In this document: piece by piece, positions 2,657 to 13,808 of the stretch | Position numbering within the stretch: position 1 is the first letter of the stretch | Layout of the letters: the number at the start of each line of letters is the position of its first letter | Assembly: GCF_001647085.1 (NCBI RefSeq) | Contig: NZ_CP015520.1 | Location: forward strand, 992,001-1,056,000 | Direction of reading: 5' to 3' | DNA length: 64,000 bases | From: Thermococcus piezophilus | Lineage (GTDB): Archaea; Methanobacteriota_B; Thermococci; Thermococcales; Thermococcaceae | Program-made: the position numbers and the translations under genes | The notes under the pieces: model-generated | Database searches by the model: none | What the model saw: only the letters and a program-made list of their open reading frames with translations | Told to the model about the DNA's origin: nothing

Positions 2657-2733
2657 GTCTGTAGGGAAAGATTCTACCATTTTTGTCAAGTACAGAGGGA
2701 AACTTTTTAAGGATTTTTACCTCTTTATCTAAC

Positions 2734-4044
2734 ATGAGCCGCGAGGAAACAATGGCCCAAATTGTGATGGACTATCTCAATCTCAGCGTTAAAGGTGTCG
2801 AGCGTGAGCTGAGGATTTCTGAGGACATCCGAATAAACAAAGCAATAACAATAATCGGCCCAAGAAGGGCTGGGAAGACCTTCTACATTCTTCAAAAGTT
2901 TTCCAAACTGAGGAAGGCTGGTAAAGCAGCCGTCTTCTTCCCTCTCGACGATGACAGGATATACCCTCCAACACCCGATGACCTTTCAACTCTCGTGAGG
3001 GTATTCTACGAGCTCTTCCCGGATGCCGACGAGAAGTACCTTTTTCTCGACGAGATTCAGAACGTCCCCAACTGGGAGCTTTTCGTTAAGCGTGTCATGG
3101 AACGTGATGGGTTCAGGGTTTACTTAACCGGCTCCTCTTCAAAACTCCTCAGCAGGGAGATAGCAACGGCCCTTCGGGGAAGAACTCTAACATTCGAGAT
3201 GCTACCCTTCAGCTTCCGAGAGTTCCTTAGAGCGAAGGGGATTGAGGTGGGTAGGTATCTCTCAACGAGAGAAGAGGCGGTTGTCAAGACTCTTCTGAGG
3301 GAATACCTAGAGTTCGGCGGCTTTCCAGAGGTTGTTCTTATCGAGGACACATACCTAAAGCGGAAAACGCTTTCCGAGTATGTGGATGTGATGCTGTATC
3401 GCGACGTTGTTGAAAGGCACGGGGTAAAGAATTTAAAAGCTGTGAGGCTGTTCCTGAAGCTTCTCATAACGTCCTTTGCCAAGGAGTTCTCGGTGAACCG
3501 AACGGCTAGGTACATGAAGGGTATTGGCGTGGACGTCAGCAAGAACACCCTCTACAGCTACTTCGACTACTTTGAAGAAGCTTACGTGATCTTCCCGCTC
3601 AAGAAATTTTCCTACAACTTGAGGGAGGTTGAGAATAGCCTTCCCAAGGTCTACGTCGTTGATACGGGTTTGATAAACGCCTACTCGCTTCGCTTCGGGG
3701 AGACCATTGGTAGGCTCATCGAGAACGCCGTTTTCCTTGAACTTAGAAGACGTGAGAATGAGCTCTACTACTTCAGGGACGAGCGCGGGAGAGAGGTTGA
3801 TTTCCTCGTGAAGGATGGAAAGGATATCTCGGAGCTCATACAGGTCAGTTATTCACTTGAAGCCCCCGAAACGTTCGAACGAGAGATCTCGGCACTGGTG
3901 AATGCCTCGGAGAAACTCGACTGCGAAAACCTCACGATAATAAACTGGAACAGAGATGACATTCGTGAGGTCGGAGGGAAAAAGGTCAGGCTCATCCCTC
4001 TCTGGAAGTTCCTGCTTGGAGGTGACAGTAATGATTCACCTTAG
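2734..4044 (+). CDS. AAA-type ATPase with C-terminal DUF4143
   Basis: The protein belongs to the archaeal ATPase/DUF4143 group, whose members have no agreed function. It has a Walker A motif IIGPRRAGKT, a Walker B motif YLFLDEIQN and a sensor-like YLTGSSSKLL. A C-terminal PD-(D/E)XK-like region shows ENAVFLELRRRE and GREVDFLVK, as in the nuclease-fold part of DUF4143 proteins. A longer frame begins at a TTG at 2683, but the TTTTTAAGG promoter element at 2704-2712 lies inside that extension, so the ATG at 2734, giving a nearly leaderless mRNA, is preferred. The end overlaps nadC by 14 bases. An ATPase between nadA and nadC is an oddity of this locus. Confidence 0.85.
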   Translation: MSREETMAQIVMDYLNLSVKGVERELRISEDIRINKAITIIGPRRAGKTFYILQKFSKLRKAGKAAVFFPLDDDRIYPPTPDDLSTLVRVFYELFPDADEKYLFLDEIQNVPNWELFVKRVMERDGFRVYLTGSSSKLLSREIATALRGRTLTFEMLPFSFREFLRAKGIEVGRYLSTREEAVVKTLLREYLEFGGFPEVVLIEDTYLKRKTLSEYVDVMLYRDVVERHGVKNLKAVRLFLKLLITSFAKEFSVNRTARYMKGIGVDVSKNTLYSYFDYFEEAYVIFPLKKFSYNLREVENSLPKVYVVDTGLINAYSLRFGETIGRLIENAVFLELRRRENELYYFRDERGREVDFLVKDGKDISELIQVSYSLEAPETFEREISALVNASEKLDCENLTIINWNRDDIREVGGKKVRLIPLWKFLLGGDSNDSP

Positions 4045-4864: not shown

Positions 4865-4978
4865 GTTTTATCCTTCCATGCGTTTTTCTTTTGGGTTCCC
4901 TTCTGTATCTCTCGCCGGCCAAGGCAAAAATTTAGGGTGCCGCCCGAACTGTTGGAGCTCGTAATCATAATTCTGCAC

Positions 4979-5288
4979 TTATTTTCTCCCCAGTGCACTT
5001 GCATACCTGCTGTTTCGTATAAGCTCCTTCACCCGTTCAAGGGCGGTTAAGTATGCATCTTCTGTGGCATCTTTTAAGTACTCCTCGTACTGTGGCTTCA
5101 TCGCACGATGCAACCGCGAAGGTTACTGTAGCGAGGATTGCCGCCAGCGCCTGCACAATGTAGCAGAGTGCTAATACAAACTCTTTCCCGTTAATCTCAA
5201 CCTCAATCTCAGCACCAAATCCATCGGATTCCTTCAGCTTTTCAAGACTTGGCTTAACACAAAATTTAATGTCCATCACTATCCTCAT
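4979..5288 (-). pseudogene. Frameshifted small gene of unknown function (edge of accessory island)
   Basis: The frame opens with MRIVMDIKFCVKPSLEKLK at 5288 and has a hydrophobic stretch ALCYIVQALAAILATV. It then runs out of frame near 5095-5115. The continuation in another frame (KPQYEEYLKDATEDAYLTAL, then ERVKELIRNSRYASALGRK, stop at 4979) reads as a natural charged C-terminus, so I see one gene of about 100 residues broken by one indel. Its start overlaps the stop of the upstream gene as ATGA. I do not recognise the family; its position suggests a partner of the gene at 5285-5797. Confidence 0.55.
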
Positions 5289-5797
5289 TCTTCGCTCAAT
5301 TCTTTCAGGTTTTTAAGGAGTTCTTTGTAGTCATTAATTATCTTTAGGTACCCTTTAATCCCGTTCTCCTCAAATATGCGAGTGCAGGATTCCAACTCTT
5401 GGATGGCCCTGTCAGTGACGTTTATTGCAACCTTCGCAAACTCTTTAACCGGTACCCTACAGACCTTCCTGTAATCCACACTTACGAGATAGATATACTC
5501 ATCCTCCCTGAACCCGTAGATGACTAAAGTTGGATCATAACTTCCAAGAAAGGATCTCAAGAACAGGTCTGATGCCAATTTGTTAAATTTGTTTTTCAAT
5601 AGTCCTCTGGGAATTCTGACTTCATTGTCAAGCCAGTTCGGGAGCTCTTTAGGGATCTTAAAGCTTCATCCGTAGGACCTTACGTTCTTGGGAACTTCCC
5701 TATACTTCCACAGGATAAAAAATCCCTCTCCCTCATCCGATACCTGTTCTCTCTTCTTTCTACCCCTTAACCAGTTCAATATACTCAATCCCACCAC
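5285..5797 (-). pseudogene. Small gene with an in-frame TGA, possible relative of the toxin-linked gene at 11747
   Basis: The frame is open for 170 codons from a GTG at 5797 (MVGLSILNWLRGRKK, counting GTG as Met) except for one TGA at 5666-5668. After it come KIPKELPNWLDNEVRIPRG and LGSYDPTLVIYGF, then VPVKEFAKVAINVTDRAIQE. The last part aligns loosely with the C-terminal third of the 267-residue protein at 11747-12550 (LGTYDPLEIVYV, then KVPKEVLLMALNDAIRDAE). The similarity is weak but collinear, so distant kinship is an inference. No domain of known function is visible. It overlaps its downstream neighbour by ATGA and follows 5804-5914 by 6 bases. Confidence 0.55.
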
Positions 5798-5803
5798 CCC
5801 GCA

Positions 5804-5914
5804 TCATTCAAGCTTCTTTTTCCTTAACATCCTTCCAGCATCCTCAGGCTCCAAATCTCCTTACTTAACAGCCCTTATGACATTTTCCGCTATCTCTATG
5901 CTTTTTTGATCCAT
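5804..5914 (-). pseudogene. Tiny open frame with an in-frame stop, downstream of the hsdM fragment
   Basis: A GAGGTG ribosome site precedes an ATG at 5914. The frame reads MDQKSIEIAENVIRAVK, a TAA, then GDLEPEDAGRMLRKKKLE and a final TGA. The reading on both sides of the TAA is acidic/basic and helical, so a 36-residue protein with one nonsense change is likely. It lies 9 bases after the hsdM stop and 6 bases before the next gene, so it belonged to the same operon. Function is unknown. Confidence 0.4.
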
Positions 5915-5923
5915 TTTCACACC

Positions 5924-6330
5924 TCAAATTTTAGTTAATATTCTCCTCAATTCCTCATCAACCTTTCTCCTCTCCTCCTTAACCTTTGCAAGCTCAACGA
6001 GTATGTCCTCAACTGGCAAAATCTCCTCTTTCTCATCAACTGAAACATAACGGGAAGGACTCAAGTTATAATCGTTCTTTCTTGCCTCCTCTATTGTTAT
6101 GATCTTTGAAAAACCTTCTATTTCCTTCCAGCCGAAATATGCATCAAGTATCTTCTTTATGTTTTCATCCGTCAAATAATTCTTTGGTCTTCCCTTTGCA
6201 AACTCCTTTGAAGCATTTATAAGCAAAATCTCGCCCTTATGCTTCTTCGCCTTATTTATCACAATTATGGTTCCGGGTGCTGTTGTGTTGTAAAATAAAT
6301 TATCGGGAGTAAAATCACTGCTTCAATAAG
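5924..6330 (-). pseudogene. hsdM: Type I restriction-modification DNA methylase HsdM, C-terminal fragment
   Basis: The frame carries DNLFYNTTAPGTIIVINK, then GEILLINASKEFAKGRPKNY and LSPSRYV, the classic post-catalytic half of type I N6-adenine methylases, ending in a coiled-coil C-terminus (VKEERRKVDEELRRIL). A one-base loss near 6303 separates the preceding LIEAVIL from PDN. Everything upstream of that, including the NPPY catalytic block, is absent. The sequence stops at about 6330, where a plus-strand helicase begins. The missing N-terminal half of an hsdM lies on the same strand at 10458-11149. Confidence 0.85.
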
Positions 6331-7822
6331 CATTCTTGCTGATTTTGAGAGCAAAGAAAGAAGTCTTCTCATAGCAACAGATGTAGCATCAGAAGGTCTC
6401 AATTTGCAGATTGCAAACGTCGTCGTAAACTATGAATCCCCATGGACTCCGATAAAGCTCGAACAGAGGATAGGAAGAGTTTGGAGACTTGGGCAAGAAA
6501 AAGAAGTGTTTGTATATAACCTCTTCCTTGCAACTAGAGCAGATTTAGATATTGCTAACGCTCTTTATGTAAAGCTTCTTAACATACATGAAGCTTTGAG
6601 TGATACAAGAGCAATACTCGGAGAGAAGATTCATGCCGCGTATGAGAAGGATGTTGGTAGCGTGGATCAGATATTCGAACCAGTTTCTGAGCTTGGCGAG
6701 GTTAAAATAAAAGGTAGGAGAAGAAAGATAACAGAGTATAGGATAGCGCTTTCGCAGATCACTGGAGAATTTGACGAACTTATGGAACTTATAGCGAGGC
6801 AGATTGCAGATCTTAAAGATGAGATATTTAGAAAGAGAATATATCCGACAGAGATTGCAGAATTTATAAAAGAACAACTTCAAAGACTTGGTGTAGGAGA
6901 TTCAGAGAAGATAGAAAAGTTACTATTAGACGTGGTAAATTTGTGTTCTCTAGAAGTTAGGAATGTTCATGAAATTTATGAACTGCTGAAGACGATTGAT
7001 GGAAGAATACCAGAAATACTTGTTATATTGGACGACAAAGAGGGCGTTGACTATATAGTGATTGCTACCGTAAAGTTTGCTGAGCATGAGATGAAGATTC
7101 CGCTCGTAGTCTTTGGAGATGATATTAAGATGGGTATAGATGCTTTGAAGTACATTATTGAAGTCGTGAAAAGATCAATAGTCCCGGATGATATCTATTA
7201 TGAAAAGCAAATAAGGCCGGGAATAGGTATTAAGAGCATGATCAAAATTAAGCTTGAAGAAAGATTTAACTCTCTCTTACGTCCTTACAGGGAATACTCT
7301 TCAAAATATGGAGGACTTTGGAAGGATGTTGGTATAAAAAATATAAGACTCGAAATTTTGACAACAGTCTTAAGACTACCTTCTACACCCGGAAATCCAG
7401 AAGAGTATGATGAAAGTTTTAGGAAGAAAGTCGAAATGGCTGCTGTGGAGTTTGTAAAAAGATATGAAGAAAGAGAGGGTAGGGTAATAGAAGACAGGCA
7501 AAATACGATGAAGTTTGACTTCTATACATATCCAAAAAATGAGAAGGATGTTCAAGAGGGTATGAGGAGAGGTGAAAGATATATAGAAGTAAAGGGGCAT
7601 GCTAGGGGCGCTGTGTTCTCAATACTTCCAAAAGGCGAGTTTGAGTTCGCAAAGAGTAGGGGAGATAAATACTGGCTTTACGTTGTGTATAACGCTTTGA
7701 GTGATAATCCCATATTAGCTACCATTAGAGATCCCATAAGCAAGCTTGCTATCGAGAAAGAAAAAAGGACTAAGGTTATTAAGGAAGAAGTCTATAAAGT
7801 TTATTTCAAACCCAGGATTTAA
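6329..7822 (+). pseudogene. SNF2-family helicase with DUF3883, C-terminal half only
   Basis: The frame is open from the junction at about 6329 to 7822. It begins in mid-domain with SILADFESKERSLLIATD, then VASEGLNLQ and LEQRIGRVWRLGQ, which are helicase motifs V and VI of the SNF2/RapA type. The C-terminal 130 residues (FDFYTYPKN, then RYIEVKGHA, then KYWLYVVYNA) fit DUF3883, a PD-(D/E)XK-like nuclease-fold domain often attached to defence helicases. Motifs I to IV and any start codon are missing, so the protein has lost its ATP site. A shorter product could start at a TTG or later codon, but it would not be an active helicase. Confidence 0.8.
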
Positions 7823-7965
7823 CAATTTAAATAAATATATCACTCGCTCGACTCCTTTGAGTTTGGCAGGAAACTAAGACGGAAGATAAATAACTTTAAA
7901 AGTAATAGGGGCAATATACTATTCGGAAAAAGTTAAGTACGGAATACAGGGTGTTGGTGAGTTTT

Positions 7966-8748
7966 ATGAGAAGTCTGAATGAAATTTTGGAAATCTTCTC
8001 ACAAATTCCTTTGGAAGTCTGGAACAAAATTGTTCAGGAAGAACCAGAATGGAAGAATATGCGAGAATTTCTTGAAAAATATGGATTCAGCAGATTTGCA
8101 GTTCTCATGACAGCAGCCGGATTAAACGACTTTCAGCTTAAAGGAAAGGCCGAGGTAGCATACTGGCCAAAAATAAGAGAATTGCTGGAGTCCTGCAAAC
8201 CTCCTGAAAGCCTGTCCGACCTAAAATCGATTCTTTCAGAATTTTACAGCAGAGAAAGATTGCCAGATCTAAAACTGAAGAGATTGAGTCGGTTCCTTTC
8301 AAGCAGACTCGCTGAATGGTTATGGGAATCAAGTGCAAAGGATGTTGCTGAGAATTTCGTCAAGATTTGGTATGAGCTTGCTACAACAATGAAACAGAAT
8401 AGAGATGCAAAAACAATTGTCTTTGCGATGAAATGCCTCGGGATTGCACTTCTCATGGCTGGGGAGACTAATTTCAGTTTCGAGAGTATTCCCATTCCTG
8501 TGGATTACAGAGTCAGAGAATTCACGAGAAGACTCGGTATAGCCGTGAATACTGACGAGGACGTGCGAAGATTCTGGAACAAAGTTCTGGAGGGATTGAG
8601 AAAAAATGGCCAGAGAATAAACATGATTCACCTTGATTCTCTGATATGGCAGATTGGCGTGCTGAGAGATTCTGAGATAGTGGATTATTTTTCGAGATTC
8701 GGTTTGAAGGAAGTTGGGGAGAGAATATCGGAGGTGTTGAGAAGATGA
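7966..8748 (+). CDS. AGOG-like N-glycosylase/DNA lyase (8-oxoguanine DNA glycosylase family)
   Basis: The protein has 260 residues from the ATG at 7966, which follows GGTGAG; a GTG at 7951 is less likely. AGOG enzymes remove oxidised guanine and cut the abasic strand. The family core is visible: DAKTIVFAMK with a lysine near 149, PIPVDYRV with an aspartate near 180, and HLDSLIWQIG near 230. The lysine-to-aspartate spacing (31) is close to that of the catalytic pair in Pyrobaculum AGOG (32). The gene is AT-rich compared with the surrounding core genes and overlaps the next gene by ATGA. It may be a horizontally gained paralogue with a role other than housekeeping repair. Confidence 0.82.
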   Translation: MRSLNEILEIFSQIPLEVWNKIVQEEPEWKNMREFLEKYGFSRFAVLMTAAGLNDFQLKGKAEVAYWPKIRELLESCKPPESLSDLKSILSEFYSRERLPDLKLKRLSRFLSSRLAEWLWESSAKDVAENFVKIWYELATTMKQNRDAKTIVFAMKCLGIALLMAGETNFSFESIPIPVDYRVREFTRRLGIAVNTDEDVRRFWNKVLEGLRKNGQRINMIHLDSLIWQIGVLRDSEIVDYFSRFGLKEVGERISEVLRR

Positions 8749-9194
8749 GGCTATGTGTAGTCCCGTGTGGAAAGTTAAAAATCTGGGACAAAAATCCTGA
8801 TGCAGGACCCACAAAGGCAAAGGACGTTTACATTGGTCCCTTTGCAAAAGCATGCATTGATTATGCTGAGAGATTTTATCCCCGAAGATATGTGATTCTA
8901 TCTGCCAAATACGGTTTTCTCTTTCCGGATGAACTGATTCCCGGAAATTATAACGTGACATTCAACGATCCAAAAACGAACCCGATAGGGGTTGAAGAAC
9001 TGAGAAGACAGGCAGAGCAAAAAGGATTGATGAAATATGACGAGATAGTTGTTGTTGCGGGTAGCAATTACGTGAAAATAGTCAGAAAGGTGTTCGCAGG
9101 AAAGAAGATCATAACTCCGCTCAAGGGGCTTGGAGGAATGGGTCTAATGATATCTGCTATAAAGAGAGCCATAGAAGATGGAAGGGAGCTTTAA
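8745..9194 (+). CDS. DUF6884-type protein coupled to the DNA glycosylase
   Basis: The 149-residue protein opens with RLCVVPCGKLKIWD and has DVYIGPFAKACIDYAERFY, ILSAKYGFLFPDE and a final glycine-rich LKGLGGMGLM. This layout (VPCGK.K.W, then an Y.G.F segment, then LSAKYG) is that of the DUF6884 family. The family's activity is not established; members occur near nucleoside or nucleic-acid modifying enzymes. The start overlaps the stop of the glycosylase gene in an ATGA, so the two products are probably made together. The gene is intact although most neighbours are broken. Confidence 0.72.
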   Translation: MRLCVVPCGKLKIWDKNPDAGPTKAKDVYIGPFAKACIDYAERFYPRRYVILSAKYGFLFPDELIPGNYNVTFNDPKTNPIGVEELRRQAEQKGLMKYDEIVVVAGSNYVKIVRKVFAGKKIITPLKGLGGMGLMISAIKRAIEDGREL

Positions 9195-9260
9195 ATTATT
9201 TAATTATTTATGTAAAAAGCATGTTGGGAGCTGATCTGAATGGTCAGGTAAACCTTTAAA

Positions 9261-9771
9261 AAAGCTATACTCACCCCACAGCCTGAAAAGGTTGGAGAAA
9301 TTAAAATTCAAAAATTTGAAGCAGGTAAAGTGAAAATTGCCAGGCTTTTCATAGAAGGCAATTTCAGCAGAAGATTTGTATGCAAGAAAAGCACTGGAAA
9401 AAGTTTCAGAACTGGATTTCAAAGCGGACTATTTTCTGACTCCAAGTGGATTTTTAATAATTCCTTGAAAGTTCAGAAGATTTGAAGAGGCTGCAGAAGA
9501 AGGAAAGTTATGGGTTGAGAAACTGCTGAGAGGTATTGAGATAAATGCTAATCACGTTCTCGTTGGTGTGGATTCCTACAGCAGCAACAGCATCAAAGAA
9601 CCACACGTCGAGCTCTCCATCACTTACTCTCAGGGAGAATGGCACTGCACAGGTAAGATATATCCTACAGTTCATCTGGAGAAGGGATTGGCCAAAGCTG
9701 ACATGGACTCTCACTTTGTAGAGCTTGATGACAGGGTTATGGTGGAGGCCTTAAATCAATACATGAGTTAA
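9261..9771 (+). pseudogene. Unrecognised gene remnant, several frameshifts
   Basis: Two in-phase stretches are separated by stops. The first is KAILTPQPEKVGEIKIQKFE followed by GKVKIARLFIEGNFSRRF; the second, from about 9487, is EEAAEEGKLWVEKLLRGIEI, then NHVLVGVDSYSSNS, GEWHCTGKIYP and LDDRVMVEALNQYMS with a stop at 9771. The amino-acid composition is protein-like throughout, so this seems to be one former gene of about 170 residues. I do not recognise it. It follows the DUF6884 gene in the same orientation and could once have belonged to that operon. Confidence 0.4.
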
Positions 9772-9883
9772 TTTGAGGTCCGAGGTCCAAAAGAGACAGT
9801 ATAAATAGAAGATTATTATCTGGGTCGCTCTCATACTCATTGTATATGTACTAACAGACGATACATTCATATTTTACCATTTT

Positions 9884-10137
9884 TCAACCCCTATGAGCTA
9901 GATCTACACCATCTTCAGTTAGATACAGCATTTTTCTCAACTACAAATCTTTCAGCGATTAGGTATTCAAGGTTGAAGCTTAGTTCAAAGTCTGAAACAT
10001 TACTGAGTTTCGTTTTCAGTTCATCTCTTGTTAATCTCTCCATTTCCAATTTCTTCGACAATCCTTTTTCTCAAAGGATTCATTGAAGCTTTAAAAAGTC
10101 GTTCATGCTGTTCTCTATCTCCTTCTCGTTCAGACAA
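9884..10137 (-). pseudogene. Winged-helix transcriptional regulator remnant
   Basis: An AGGAGG site precedes a TTG at 10137. The frame reads SEREGDREQHERLFKAS, then MNPLRKRIVEEIGNGEINKR and a stop. In the next frame it continues DELKTKLSNVSDFELSFNLE, then YLIAERFVVEKN, and in the third frame YLTEDGVDLAHRG with a stop at 9884. This is the pattern of an ArsR-like winged helix (helix, LR.RI, second helix, then a wing and YLTEDG). Two indels break it. It probably regulated part of the island. Confidence 0.5.
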
Positions 10138-10250
10138 ATTCGATTCCTCCTGCGTTTTAACCGAGTTTCAATCTTTTATTAAATTTTCGTTAGAACTTCG
10201 GGACGTGTCCGCTTAACATAACCACCTCGTTGTAGTAAAGTATAAACAGC

Positions 10251-10457
10251 TTACGAAAATTCCAGTTTAAGATTAAAACAGCTAATCGAACAGAAAAAGA
10301 TCTTTATCCTCTGCTTTAGTGGAAAAACTGATTCAATCTTACTTCTACAAAGGAATTGATGCCCGTATTCTAAATTAAGACTTTTCAGTGCATCGATTAG
10401 CAGAGCTTTATCAATGATGAATTTTGGTTTATTCTCACAGTATTTAGCTTCTTTGAC
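10251..10457 (-). pseudogene. Transposase C-terminal fragment (DDE type, tentative)
   Basis: After the hsdM-derived part of the same frame, the protein changes to YCENKPKFIIDKALLIDALK, then SLNLEYGHQF and RSKIESVFPLKQRIKIFF. The spacing of an I-D-K segment, ALKSLNLEYGH, and a basic R.KIE..F..LKQR.K.FF resembles the end of IS6/IS240-like DDE transposases, with the last acidic residue in the KIES segment. A second copy of the core (ENKPKFVIDKAEL) lies at 11461. Identification is by pattern memory only. Confidence 0.42.
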
Positions 10458-11149
10458 AAAATTTGGATTCCTTATTGTGTCCCCAACCCTTATATCTACA
10501 TCCATGTCATGGATAAAGGCGTTCATCTTTGCCATTGCATAGATAAATGGATTTATTTCCTGTCCATAGAGCTTTAAAGGCCTTTTAACTTCTTTTTTCT
10601 ATAGAATTCACCCGCCGACTGCCCCGAGTCTTCAGCAAATTTTCTCAAAAGGCATTCGTATGCTCTGCCCAGAATGTCAGGCTCTACATCATCCAAGCCA
10701 AGCCTGTACTTGCTCAGACTCTGCATTAACCTGTGGATGCTCTCATCGCTTATTATTCTCTGTCCTGCCTGAGTTGCATTAAAATCAACAATATCAATAA
10801 CTCCCTGCAATTTTGGATTCTCTTTTGCTATTTTTCTCAATGCCTCTGTTAATTTTTCACCCAAACCTGTTGTTATTTTCCTGATATTCTTCCAGAGACA
10901 TTCTTCAGGGATGTAGAATCTTACGAGTTTTCTGTCTTTTTCTACAAGCTTCCTTGCTATCTCTTCATTTCCAAATTCACTGGCAAGCTTCTTTATTTCA
11001 TCTTCATACACATCACAGAGCCTTTTGTAAAATATCAATGGAATTATGTAATCTTTATACTTTGGAGTATCTATTTCTCCTCTAATACTACATGCTGCTT
11101 CCCAGAGCCAATTTTCTAATGTTGAAGTATCAAGCTTTCCAAACTACAT
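10458..11149 (-). pseudogene. hsdM: Type I DNA methylase HsdM, N-terminal fragment
   Basis: GAGGTG and an ATG at 11149 are followed at once by a TAG, then FGKLDTSTLENWLWEAACS, GEIDTPKYKDYIIPLIF, and the HsdM N-terminal helical domain to SGQSAGEFY. The next family segment (PKEV and methylase motif I) is missing. The sequence resumes, after a frameshift near 10580, with KLYGQEINPFIYAMAKMNAF and RVGDTIRNPNF, then breaks off into a transposase-like fragment at about 10457. A TTTAAAAAT promoter element lies at 11163-11172. The start nonsense codon, internal deletion and truncation all make it non-functional. Confidence 0.85.
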
Positions 11150-11226
11150 CACTACACCTCTAATTTTTAAAGCCGAGCCACATATTTTGGGAACTCCAAG
11201 TTTAGCAGAATATGCGAACTTCCCAA

Positions 11227-11456
11227 TCATTCTTTCATTCCCATCAAATCCAGCGGACTCCTTATTTTCTCAAATCTTTAGTAGCAACATGAGTATATAA
11301 CTCTATCGTTTTCGAGCTTTTGGGCCCTAATAGCTCCTGAATGCATCTAAGTCAGCTTTCAATCAGGTGAGTTGCAAATGAATGTCTTAAGGAATGAACG
11401 GTGGCATCTTTTGTTATTCCGCTTTCTTACATGCGTTCTCAAATTCTCAAAAATTT
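11227..11456 (-). pseudogene. Tyrosine recombinase (Xer/integrase) C-terminal remnant
   Basis: Read on the minus strand, the segment gives EEQIFENLRTHVRK, then after an indel TVHSLRHSFATHLIES, a TGA, LRCIQELLGPKSSKTIELYT, HVATKDLR, and after another indel KIRSPLDLMGMKE with a stop at 11227. These are box II (HxLRH) and the catalytic tyrosine region (LYTHV) of tyrosine recombinases. The usual ELLGHKS histidine is a proline. At least three lesions make it dead. It marks a past integration event at this locus. Confidence 0.78.
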
Positions 11457-11460
11457 GCTC

Positions 11461-11508
11461 CTCAGCGAGAATAAACCGAAATTCGTTATAGATAAGGCAG
11501 AGCTTTGA
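11461..11508 (+). pseudogene. Short transposase-like scrap
   Basis: The plus strand encodes SENKPKFVIDKAEL followed by TGA. It matches ENKPKFIIDKALL of the minus-strand fragment at 10251-10457, with changes mostly at third codon positions, which argues for common coding ancestry. Only about fifteen codons remain. Together the two scraps bracket the hsdM N-terminal fragment. Confidence 0.35.
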
Positions 11509-11746
11509 AAGGCTCCCTCTTGTTTGCATCCGCTATAACCAATCACTCATCAACGCCGAAGAGCTCAAGTCTCTCTAAAATCGGTGAGTAGAAGAAGTGA
11601 ACGTAAATGAAGACAACATCCCAAAACGCTCAATTCTGTAGTATGGTCTCGTCTCCGTGCCGGAGTGCAACCGTCAGGGCATCCACCGAAACCTCGCCCC
11701 CGGAGTGCCTACTCCCAGCCGAAGAAAAAGATGGAAAAAGACATAT

Positions 11747-12550
11747 TCACCACCCGGACAACTTTAGCCTTTCGAGTTCCTTTTCCGCGTCCCTTATTGC
11801 ATCGTTCAGAGCCATTAAAAGAACTTCTTTAGGAACTTTAATTGCGATTTTGGCCCATGCAACAAAGAACAGGGCAGCTCTGTCGCCAAGGTTGGAGACA
11901 TAAACTATCTCCAATGGATCATAAGTGCCAAGATTAAATCGGACAAAAGGTGGACTAACACAGTCAGCCGACTTGACCAGTGTTGGTAGCGCTTTTTCCA
12001 AGCCCTGCTTTAGTTGAGCGATGTCCCACACCACTCTCCACTTTTCCTTAGGTAGTTTTCCCTCCTCAATAAACTCTTTCAGTCCCCTCAGGTCATCCAG
12101 GTAATCCCTCAAGTTTATAGTAGCGTTTAGAACGTAAACGTCGCCATAAATCTCGATATCATACTCATTCAGGTAGCTCTCATCGCCCTCGCTCCAGAAC
12201 TCCTCCGGGCGGAGGAGTCTAAATTTTAAATGCTTCACTTTCACTGGCCTCTTCTGTAGAATACGGCGTATGTTTTCTATAGTGTGTTGAACGTTTTTAG
12301 TGAACTCTCCAGCGGAGACCTGGATGTTCCTGCCGTCTGGAAGTCTAATCTTGACGTACTCTCCATTTTTTATGATTTTCAACCCGAATATATCTGTGGA
12401 AACTGTTCTTAAATTTACGAGTTCCATCAGCATATTCAGGAACTCTTTTACCAGGATGGGTTCTTCAGTGATGAAAATGGGTTCCTCGGCTGTTATCAGA
12501 ACCGGAAACCCATCTTCCTCTGTGGTAAAATAAAAGGAGAAATACACCAT
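11747..12550 (-). CDS. Hypothetical protein, candidate immunity protein for the adjacent toxin
   Basis: The 267-residue protein has no signal peptide and no membrane segment. It starts MVYFSFYFTTEEDGFPVLI and ends with a charged helix (DAIRDAEKELERLKLSGW). A GGGGG ribosome site stands before the ATG, and only 11 bases separate it from the end of the toxin-like gene upstream. I do not recognise the family. Its position immediately 3' of a secreted nuclease-like toxin, its intact frame next to a broken toxin, and a possible paralogue at the other end of the island (5285-5797) all fit an immunity gene; this is inference from context. Confidence 0.6.
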   Translation of the reverse strand: MVYFSFYFTTEEDGFPVLITAEEPIFITEEPILVKEFLNMLMELVNLRTVSTDIFGLKIIKNGEYVKIRLPDGRNIQVSAGEFTKNVQHTIENIRRILQKRPVKVKHLKFRLLRPEEFWSEGDESYLNEYDIEIYGDVYVLNATINLRDYLDDLRGLKEFIEEGKLPKEKWRVVWDIAQLKQGLEKALPTLVKSADCVSPPFVRFNLGTYDPLEIVYVSNLGDRAALFFVAWAKIAIKVPKEVLLMALNDAIRDAEKELERLKLSGW

Positions 12551-12561
12551 AACACAGCCCC

Positions 12562-13539
12562 CTAATATTTAGATGCCGGGAATGCGGTGACTATCCTATA
12601 CCACCCATTTCCCACTTTTTCAAGCACTACTGCCATTTTTGTTCCAAGTTTCGGAGAGTACCTCACGAGTAGCATGCTGTTCGGCTTCTTTCCACAGTCC
12701 ACATCATCTGGATTCCGTATGGTCTCTTTTATTTCCCTCATGATGTCTTGGGCAGAGAGGTACTTAAATTTGTCCTTGGACCTATACGCCCTCGTGAGTA
12801 TATGTCGTTTAATGATGTGTTTAACTCCTTCCTTGTCAAGTATAACCCACCCACCATCAAAAACCCCGCAAGATAGTGTTGCTCCTTTAAACCATATATT
12901 TCCAAAATATGGATATTCTTTCTCAAATTTCTCGGCAAGTTTCTTCGCGTCATTTGCGTCCCATCCGTTGAGCCATGCTTGTGCGAGTAGTTGTCCGAAT
13001 TCTTTTGGACTGAAGAGGCAGCTGACTTGGTCAAGCTCGCTGGTTTTGACTCCCACTATTTTTCTTGGGCCATTATAAATCGCAATACTTTCAACTTTGG
13101 GTAGTGGGATGATCCAGATTTCTTTAGGTTGTAATTAACGTCCGGATCCCTCATGTAATTGCCTGCAGTCGTTAGGAAACCGTCACCAAACTCTGAGGTT
13201 TGTTTAATGCCTATGGCCCTCAGCACATACTTGCCAGGTGAACGCCCCGTATTTCTCAATGACCCTGTAAAGTCCAATGACAGCTATTGTGGCTAAGCTT
13301 ACGGTTATGGCTAACAGTTCAGTACTGCCCACTACTATACTTATACCAACACCAATAGCTGGTAGGAACTGCGGCTGGACTTTATCTCCTGGCTTCCTCT
13401 CAGGATTGAATTCTGAGGGGAGTTCTACGGTGCTGTTCGAGGTAGTGTTCACTAACTCTGCCGTGGCGCTTGCACTGCTGACGGTCATTCCAAGAAAGAG
13501 CACAACCGGGGTAAGAGCAACAATCCTACGCAATTTCAT
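12562..13539 (-). pseudogene. Secreted toxin with C-terminal BECR-type nuclease-like domain (two frameshifts)
   Basis: Three frames join into one protein of about 325 residues. Part one (from ATG 13539) is a signal peptide (MKLRRIVALTPVVLFLG), a Thr/Ser-rich spacer and a long hydrophobic glycine-rich segment ending VIGLYRVIEKYG. Loss or gain of one base at a C4 run (13245-13248) leads to SPGKYVLRAIGIKQTSEFGD. A second slip at a T3 run (13123-13125) leads to EIWIIPLPKVESIAIYNGPR. The last 110 residues hold EGVKHIIKRHI, then IMREIKETIRNPDDV and WYRIVTAFPA. This H..RH, I..I..P and VTA.P layout is that of barnase/EndoU/colicin-E5/RelE-like toxin domains. A signal peptide on such a domain suggests an exported toxin. 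Confidence 0.66.
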
Positions 13540-13569
13540 TGTATCATCAGTGTTGAGCACACGATTGTA

Positions 13570-13579
13570 GTTTTTAAAC
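13570..13579 (-). promoter_or_regulatory. TATA-like element of the toxin gene
   Basis: On the minus strand GTTTAAAAAC lies about 30 bases upstream of the ATG at 13539, at the distance expected for an archaeal TATA box giving a short leader. It suggests that the toxin and its downstream partner form their own transcription unit, divergent from pdxS. Confidence 0.45.
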
Positions 13580-13808
13580 TTTGCTTAGTAACAACTGAGG
13601 CATGTCTTGGCAAACATCGTTGAGTAGTAATTGAGGACAGAAAATATTTGCTGGATTTTTAATCCAATCCGAACAACCCTATACAATATTCCCCGGCTGT
13701 TAAGTCTTTAAACTGCTTCCCTGGTCATTTCTGCTTCCACATCGCAATCCTTATATTCAAGCTTTTTCTTGAGATTATTGCAAGTTACAGCTTGAAAAGG
13801 TGATACCA

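Follow-up and report, generated by a model that had tools for sequence, protein, structure and literature searches.

What does an additional AGOG-family DNA glycosylase do when its gene is overlapped by that of a DUF6884 protein and the two are surrounded by broken restriction genes? The question is raised by a locus in the window, by which we mean the whole 64,000-nucleotide stretch of Thermococcus piezophilus DNA analysed here; the host genome consists of 1.93 Mb in a single contig and belongs to the Thermococcus group. We refer to the additional glycosylase as AGOG2, and the features of the locus are collected in Table 1.

The gene pair and its surroundings

Table 1. Features of the AGOG2–DUF6884 locus, in window positions
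Feature	Position	Strand	Basis
Island between nadC and pdxS, ~9 kb	4865–13799		nadC–pdxS adjacency in relatives
Broken hsdM, C-terminal piece	5924–6262	-	N6_Mtase 230-310/311; PADLOC MTase_I
SNF2-type helicase, C-terminal piece, HmaA-like, NOV_C domain	6404–7822	+	HmaA E=8.9e-21; NOV_C PF13020
AGOG2, AGOG-family HhH-GPD glycosylase/AP lyase (predicted), 260 aa from ATG	7966–8748	+	PF09171 E=5.6e-27
Glu28 codon, position of Pab-AGOG Gln24 / Pae-AGOG Gln31	8047–8049	+	residue mapping
GGAGGTG, Shine-Dalgarno-like, 8 bases upstream of DUF6884 ATG	8730–8736	+	sequence
ATGA stop-start overlap of AGOG2 and DUF6884, translational coupling	8745–8748	+	sequence
DUF6884 (YaaA-superfamily) partner, 149 aa	8745–9194	+	PF21818 E=1.3e-14
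Remnant of an unnamed third gene behind the pair, decayed	9253–9744	+	tblastn E=1e-48, frameshifts, stops
Broken type I methyltransferase hsdM, N-terminal and middle pieces	10251–11038 (10251–10535, 10574–11038)	-	HsdM_N, N6_Mtase; PADLOC MTase_I E=4e-53

Both genes belong clearly to their families: AGOG2 scores 95.1 bits against a Pfam AGOG gathering cut-off of 26.1 bits, and its partner 54.9 bits against a PF21818 cut-off of 30 bits. The first-pass annotation, made from the DNA letters, had described two intact genes sharing ATGA, and both the family matches and the overlap agree with that description. An alternative upstream start of AGOG2, a GTG, lies at 7951. Both genes are under purifying selection in related copies, with a dN/dS of ~0.13 (L041 compared with L042).

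In 10 of 11 relatives pdxS directly follows nadC, and the segment that separates them in the window is thus an insertion. The hsdM pieces and the HmaA-like C-terminal piece bear out the earlier view that the pair is flanked by broken restriction and helicase genes. Together with the HmaA/HmaB genes and ADP-ribosylglycohydrolases met at other loci (see below), they also uphold the defence-type setting that had been assigned to it. Two Archaeoglobus genomes have the third gene, decayed in the window, in intact form close to the pair (L050, 1507–2259; L040, 4183–5019).

Two further features of the window are recorded here. A weak match to PBECR2-type phage-associated nucleases lies on the minus strand at 12562–13056 (E=1.8e-5, just under the cut-off), and an AAA ATPase-type gene is located between nadA and nadC (2683–4044). 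The latter is found in three of the 11 relatives and is missing where nadA directly precedes nadC.

Distribution of AGOG2 and recurrence of the pairing

AGOG2 is a second AGOG, as had been supposed: a separate housekeeping AGOG is encoded in the same genome at C1:1453527 and is 31% identical to the window copy. AGOG matches were obtained in 80 of 101 genomes of the class, nearly all of which have one housekeeping-type AGOG, and the accessory type, 46–51% identical to the window copy, is found in few of them. Additionally, all eight Archaeoglobi tested contain an OGG-type enzyme besides AGOG2. The separate AGOG of the host, the single housekeeping copy across the family and the OGG of Archaeoglobi together rule out that the window gene is the single housekeeping AGOG.

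The distribution of AGOG2 is sporadic (9 of 115 Thermococci and 13 of 59 Archaeoglobi). In the tree, AGOG2 and housekeeping AGOG fall on the two sides of one branch (support 100/99). The window copy nests among those of Archaeoglobi, away from most other Thermococcus copies, indicating horizontal transfer. From this topology, Thermococcales would have acquired AGOG2 by transfer at least twice.

Joining the genome searches gave 27 distinct AGOG2 loci, of which 9 are from Thermococci, 13 from Archaeoglobi and 5 from lineages with a single locus each (contigs labelled Thermoplasmata, Brockarchaeota, Methanoperedens, Methanophagales and Omnitrophota; these belong to metagenome bins and may be mislabelled). 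Two Archaeoglobi loci stop at contig edges, leaving 25 with readable context. In 22 of these, one of them decayed (L052/L077), AGOG2 is fused to a DUF6884 or YaaA-type partner, adjoins it or lies no more than 2 kb away from it; in the other three (G044, the truncated G085, and L048) AGOG2 lacks a partner. The partners come from two families, DUF6884 and YaaA, of one superfamily. The ATGA overlap is present in seven loci, namely the window and six others (L040–L044 and L051). Fusions bring the two domains closer still: L074 encodes one intact protein of 549 aa with the order DUF7664-AGOG2-DUF6884, and L076 joins AGOG2 to a YaaA-type domain, both confirmed by Pfam. In-frame AGOG-DUF6884 junctions are also present in L050 and in L045, the latter having frameshifts elsewhere.

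Of 115 Thermococci, 9 carry AGOG2, 9 carry DUF6884 and 7 carry both, always at most 2 kb apart (Fisher p = 2.9e-8, no more than indicative since the genomes are related and hence not independent). The fusions and the repeated choice of partner across lineages weigh more than this p value. The neighbourhood survey thus shows that the pairing recurs and, given the separate housekeeping AGOG of the host, neither of the outcomes that the first-pass annotation had set as refuting its proposal was observed.

The setting of the pair varies. HmaA/HmaB lie beside it in L051, whereas in L041, L043 and L047 it is found among housekeeping genes, outside a defence island. The partner is oriented divergently from AGOG2, with no coupling, in a recurrent Thermococcus cassette (L033, 6585–15007; L034, 4879–12129; L035, 6451–14413; L036, 7667–11417; L049, 510–10774). 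Besides AGOG2, this cassette contains DUF6884, a protein X of ~280 aa, one or two ADP-ribosylglycohydrolases and TPR proteins, with a GGACT-like or MBL-fold protein or a DUF7662-like small protein in some copies. Protein X has no match in Pfam, NCBIfam or the PDB and only a weak, unnamed one in PHROGs; homology to AGOG was ruled out (hhalign probability 0.5%).

Other arrangements are seen in Archaeoglobi. DUF7664 is fused N-terminally to AGOG2 in several of them (L074, 1102–2748; L040, 1058–2197; L045, 8459–9007; L068). At L068 (378–2226), the end of AGOG2 is separated by ~1 kb from the AGOG2 body and DUF6884, as if an element had been inserted. An unnamed gene is located downstream of the pair in L040 (2655–3377), L042 (11338–11907) and L045 (11094–11327), and a Cys/His zinc-finger-like motif is present at the start of the L040 and L045 copies. 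The L040 copy does not match any family of Pfam, NCBIfam or PHROGs.

Active-site residues, the partner fold and possible functions

The PDB structures matched by the AlphaFold2 model of AGOG2 (pLDDT 92.3) with E<0.001 are AGOGs without exception, with TM scores of 0.70–0.80 and identities of 19–27% in the fold comparison. We compared 18 AGOG2 with 24 housekeeping AGOG sequences. The catalytic residues Lys149 (codon 8410–8412) and Asp180 (8503–8505) are present in all 18, as are the stacking residues Phe153 and Trp228 and the residues that face the guanine (Lys156, Pro178 and Asp224). Gln24 is the specific 8-oxoG reader of AGOG (PMC9638937). It is invariant in the 24 housekeeping sequences and is replaced by Glu28 in all AGOG2 sequences; the alignment is anchored here by “EPE” of AGOG2 against “DPQ” of Pae-AGOG, the Q being Gln31. 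Similarly, Trp62 (24/24) is replaced by Tyr66 (18/18), and Ser51 (24/24) by Asp55 (17/18). These three positions contact 8-oxoG or the sugar, and the two groups do not overlap at any of them. As the guanine face is kept and the contacts to the 7/8 edge and the sugar are changed, the target is probably not ordinary 8-oxoguanine; judging from these residues, it is probably a guanine-shaped base altered at the 7/8 edge.

A plasmid of the haloarchaeon Natribaculum longum (CP095396.1; L064, 2160–6762) also carries an AGOG-like gene, which has “EPEY” where AGOG has Gln24. It lies near an MrfA-type helicase gene, without DUF6884.

The model of the DUF6884 partner (pLDDT 95.4) has E. coli YaaA (5caj, E=6e-4) as its best PDB match, followed by AF0587 (2q07, E=0.02); matches to the uracil-glycosylase fold are weak and below significance. 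The window protein contains a CxxxK motif (Cys8 and Lys12) and an LSAxxG motif, and Cys8, Lys12 and LSAKYG are invariant or nearly so. AF0587 is related to the DUF5591 (ArcS-type) protein of the host genome. A kinship of DUF6884 with ArcS was rejected at the level of sequence profiles, where the comparison was not significant, leaving a resemblance in fold and motif. For a member of the family, YfjM of B. subtilis, the Pfam curators report an interaction with abasic and RNA-base lesions, along with a prediction that this protein flips a nucleotide into a pocket; YaaA is a DNA-binding protein of oxidative stress (PMC11701544). DpdC, the enzyme that turns dPreQ0 in DNA into dADG, contains DUF6884 or the related PF03883 (PMC11888242, PMC12839542). 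Most simply, DUF6884 would have a flipped base or an abasic site as its ligand, beside a base-excision enzyme.

We favour, with about even confidence, the interpretation that the pair is a defence module, which excises guanine altered at the 7/8 edge from foreign DNA. AGOG2 and DUF6884 would be the two components of a mobile base-excision module. In this view, AGOG2 would flip a guanine-derived base out of the DNA and remove it by means of Lys149 and Asp180 and, to judge from the conserved residues, may nick the strand by beta-elimination like housekeeping AGOG. The target would be guanine with a change at position 7 or 8, most plausibly within the DNA of a virus or another foreign source. DUF6884 would act at the same site and either recognize or chemically handle the flipped base or hold the abasic product, as suggested by the fusions, the coupling and its relatives. 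Loss of the base would then block replication of the invader, as is reported for Brig1. Counting against this interpretation are the location of some loci among housekeeping genes, the divergent and uncoupled partner of the Thermococcus cassettes, the partnerless AGOG2 of G044 and L048, and the lack of a virus link. Neither single-sequence nor alignment searches found relatives in viral contigs at the sensitivity used, and phage and plasmid records yielded nothing beyond distant DUF6884 proteins and one haloarchaeal plasmid AGOG without DUF6884. Of the first-pass annotation, the extra AGOG, the translational coupling, the recurrent pairing and the defence-type setting all stand. The function it had suggested, in which modified bases would be removed from foreign DNA while DUF6884 acts on nucleotides or marks the target, is a candidate that fits the residue pattern and the context.

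It is possible, if somewhat doubtful, that the pair is instead a mobile repair module, in which AGOG2 removes another oxidised or alkylated guanine lesion, such as FapyG or 7-methylguanine, from host DNA, leaving an abasic product for DUF6884 to bind and hand over, and has no part in acting on foreign DNA. The abasic-lesion binding of a DUF6884 member and the oxidative-stress role of YaaA (PMC11701544) would suit this function, as would the MrfA-type repair helicase adjoining the divergent haloarchaeal AGOG and the pairs that lie among housekeeping genes. However, the sporadic presence of AGOG2, its transfer between orders, the island with broken restriction genes and the ADP-ribosylglycohydrolase and HmaA neighbours are better explained by defence than by housekeeping repair.

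The defence interpretation has a narrower form, which we regard as unlikely, namely a restriction glycosylase system directed against 7-deazaguanine-modified viral DNA. Glu28 would serve as the counterpart of a positively charged 7-substituent, as found in preQ1 or archaeosine, and DUF6884, as kin of DpdC with an ArcS-core-like structure, would recognize or process the modified base. Cleavage of the glycosidic bonds of 7-deazaguanines is expected to be difficult, which counts against this proposal, and no 7-deazaguanine-modified viruses of these hosts were found in this analysis. If the proposal were true, the very modification that shields such viruses would be the point of attack. Haloviruses with dPreQ1 in their DNA are known, and the DNA of HVTV-1 contains ~88,600 dPreQ1 per million nucleotides (PMC6884629).

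A plain duplicate for 8-oxoG repair, with AGOG2 as a redundant glycosylase and DUF6884 as an accessory, is rather improbable. The AGOG fold and the catalytic residues would allow it, and since Glu28 can in principle still accept the N7-H of 8-oxoG, the residue switch narrows the substrate without settling it. On the other hand, the change of the 8-oxoG reader from Gln to Glu is fixed and the Trp contact is altered, and the Q31S mutant of Pae-AGOG is inactive (PMC9638937). AGOG2 is also always extra to AGOG or OGG where tested, and it scores 87 bits against the NCBIfam equivalog for 8-oxoG N-glycosylase/DNA lyase, far under the cut-off of 240 bits.

Very unlikely, in our estimate, is an exchange or marking of bases in host DNA, whereby AGOG2 removes guanine and DUF6884 helps to install or finish a modified base. 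Such a role could be expected from the DUF6884 or PF03883 domain of DpdC (PMC11888242, PMC12839542) and from the resemblance of the DUF6884 fold to AF0587, a relative of the ArcS-type protein of the host. However, the pair has no recurrent neighbour that encodes a transglycosylase, a preQ0-synthesis enzyme or a DpdB-like protein, a strand-breaking lyase is poorly suited to base exchange, and neither the non-significant similarity to ArcS nor the weak match of the DpdC model to the window protein (E=0.015) strengthens the case. A toxin-antitoxin-like couple, in which AGOG2 damages DNA and DUF6884 restrains it, is hardly probable, since the small, overlapping and decay-prone operons on islands that recall such pairs are accompanied by in-frame fusions and divergent cassette orientations, which are atypical of them, and AGOG2 occurs alone in G044 and L048.

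Relation to known systems

Both protein families and glycosylase-based defence are already known. In the literature searched, we found no published description of the pair, and none of the AGOG2 clade, of its seemingly obligate partnership with DUF6884 or YaaA, of the fusions or of the residue switch. There was likewise no mention of PDC-M57 or DUF7664, and none of the papers listed by a search combining AGOG with defence mentions AGOG. The fusions and the fixed residue switch place DUF6884 beside a base-excision enzyme and narrow the candidate substrates of AGOG2 to a few that can be tested. Among PADLOC models, PDC-M57A, which is of the DUF6884 type, matches the window protein (E=1.4e-15), so that the family is already among defence candidates; the PADLOC hits include no AGOG-type protein, and the pair itself is not listed.

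Housekeeping AGOG (PF09171; Pab-AGOG, 7olb; Pae-AGOG, 1xqo) has its fold and family in common with AGOG2, and its catalytic (Lys142 and Asp174), stacking (Phe146 and Trp212) and guanine-face residues (Lys149, Pro172 and Asp208, all in AGOG numbering) are retained. In contrast, AGOG2 forms a separate clade, is sporadic, mobile and paired with DUF6884, and has Gln24, Trp62 and Ser51 changed to Glu, Tyr and Asp, respectively. YfjM shares the DUF6884 family with the partner, but it is not reported to be coupled to a glycosylase (PMC11701544). DpdC of the 7-deazaguanine system and DUF6884 belong to one superfamily; the DpdA transglycosylase, DpdB and other Dpd components are not recurrent neighbours of the pair. 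R.PabI (PMC10273834), also present in Thermococcales, similarly employs base excision and AP-lyase activity, in the service of restriction. It differs, however, in its HALFPIPE fold, its sequence-specific target and its cognate methyltransferase. None of these is seen with the AGOG2 pair: no methyltransferase recurs beside it across the loci, and the hsdM of the window is broken.

Anti-phage DNA glycosylases were first reported in 2024, with a uracil-glycosylase-like fold and modified cytosines as targets. Brig1 and Brig3 (PMC11078745, PMC13160076) resemble AGOG2 in being extra glycosylases in mobile defence settings, with a proposed excision from invader DNA, and ADP-ribosylglycohydrolases have been reported near Brig1 homologues (PMC11078745) as they are found near AGOG2. 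Brig1 is structurally closest to uracil DNA glycosylases and has alpha-glucosyl-hmC as its substrate, that of Brig3 being 5hmC, whereas AGOG2 has the HhH-GPD fold and appears to be built for a guanine derivative. If the defence interpretation is correct, AGOG2 would be an archaeal counterpart of these enzymes, with another fold, a guanine-derived target and a dedicated DUF6884 partner.
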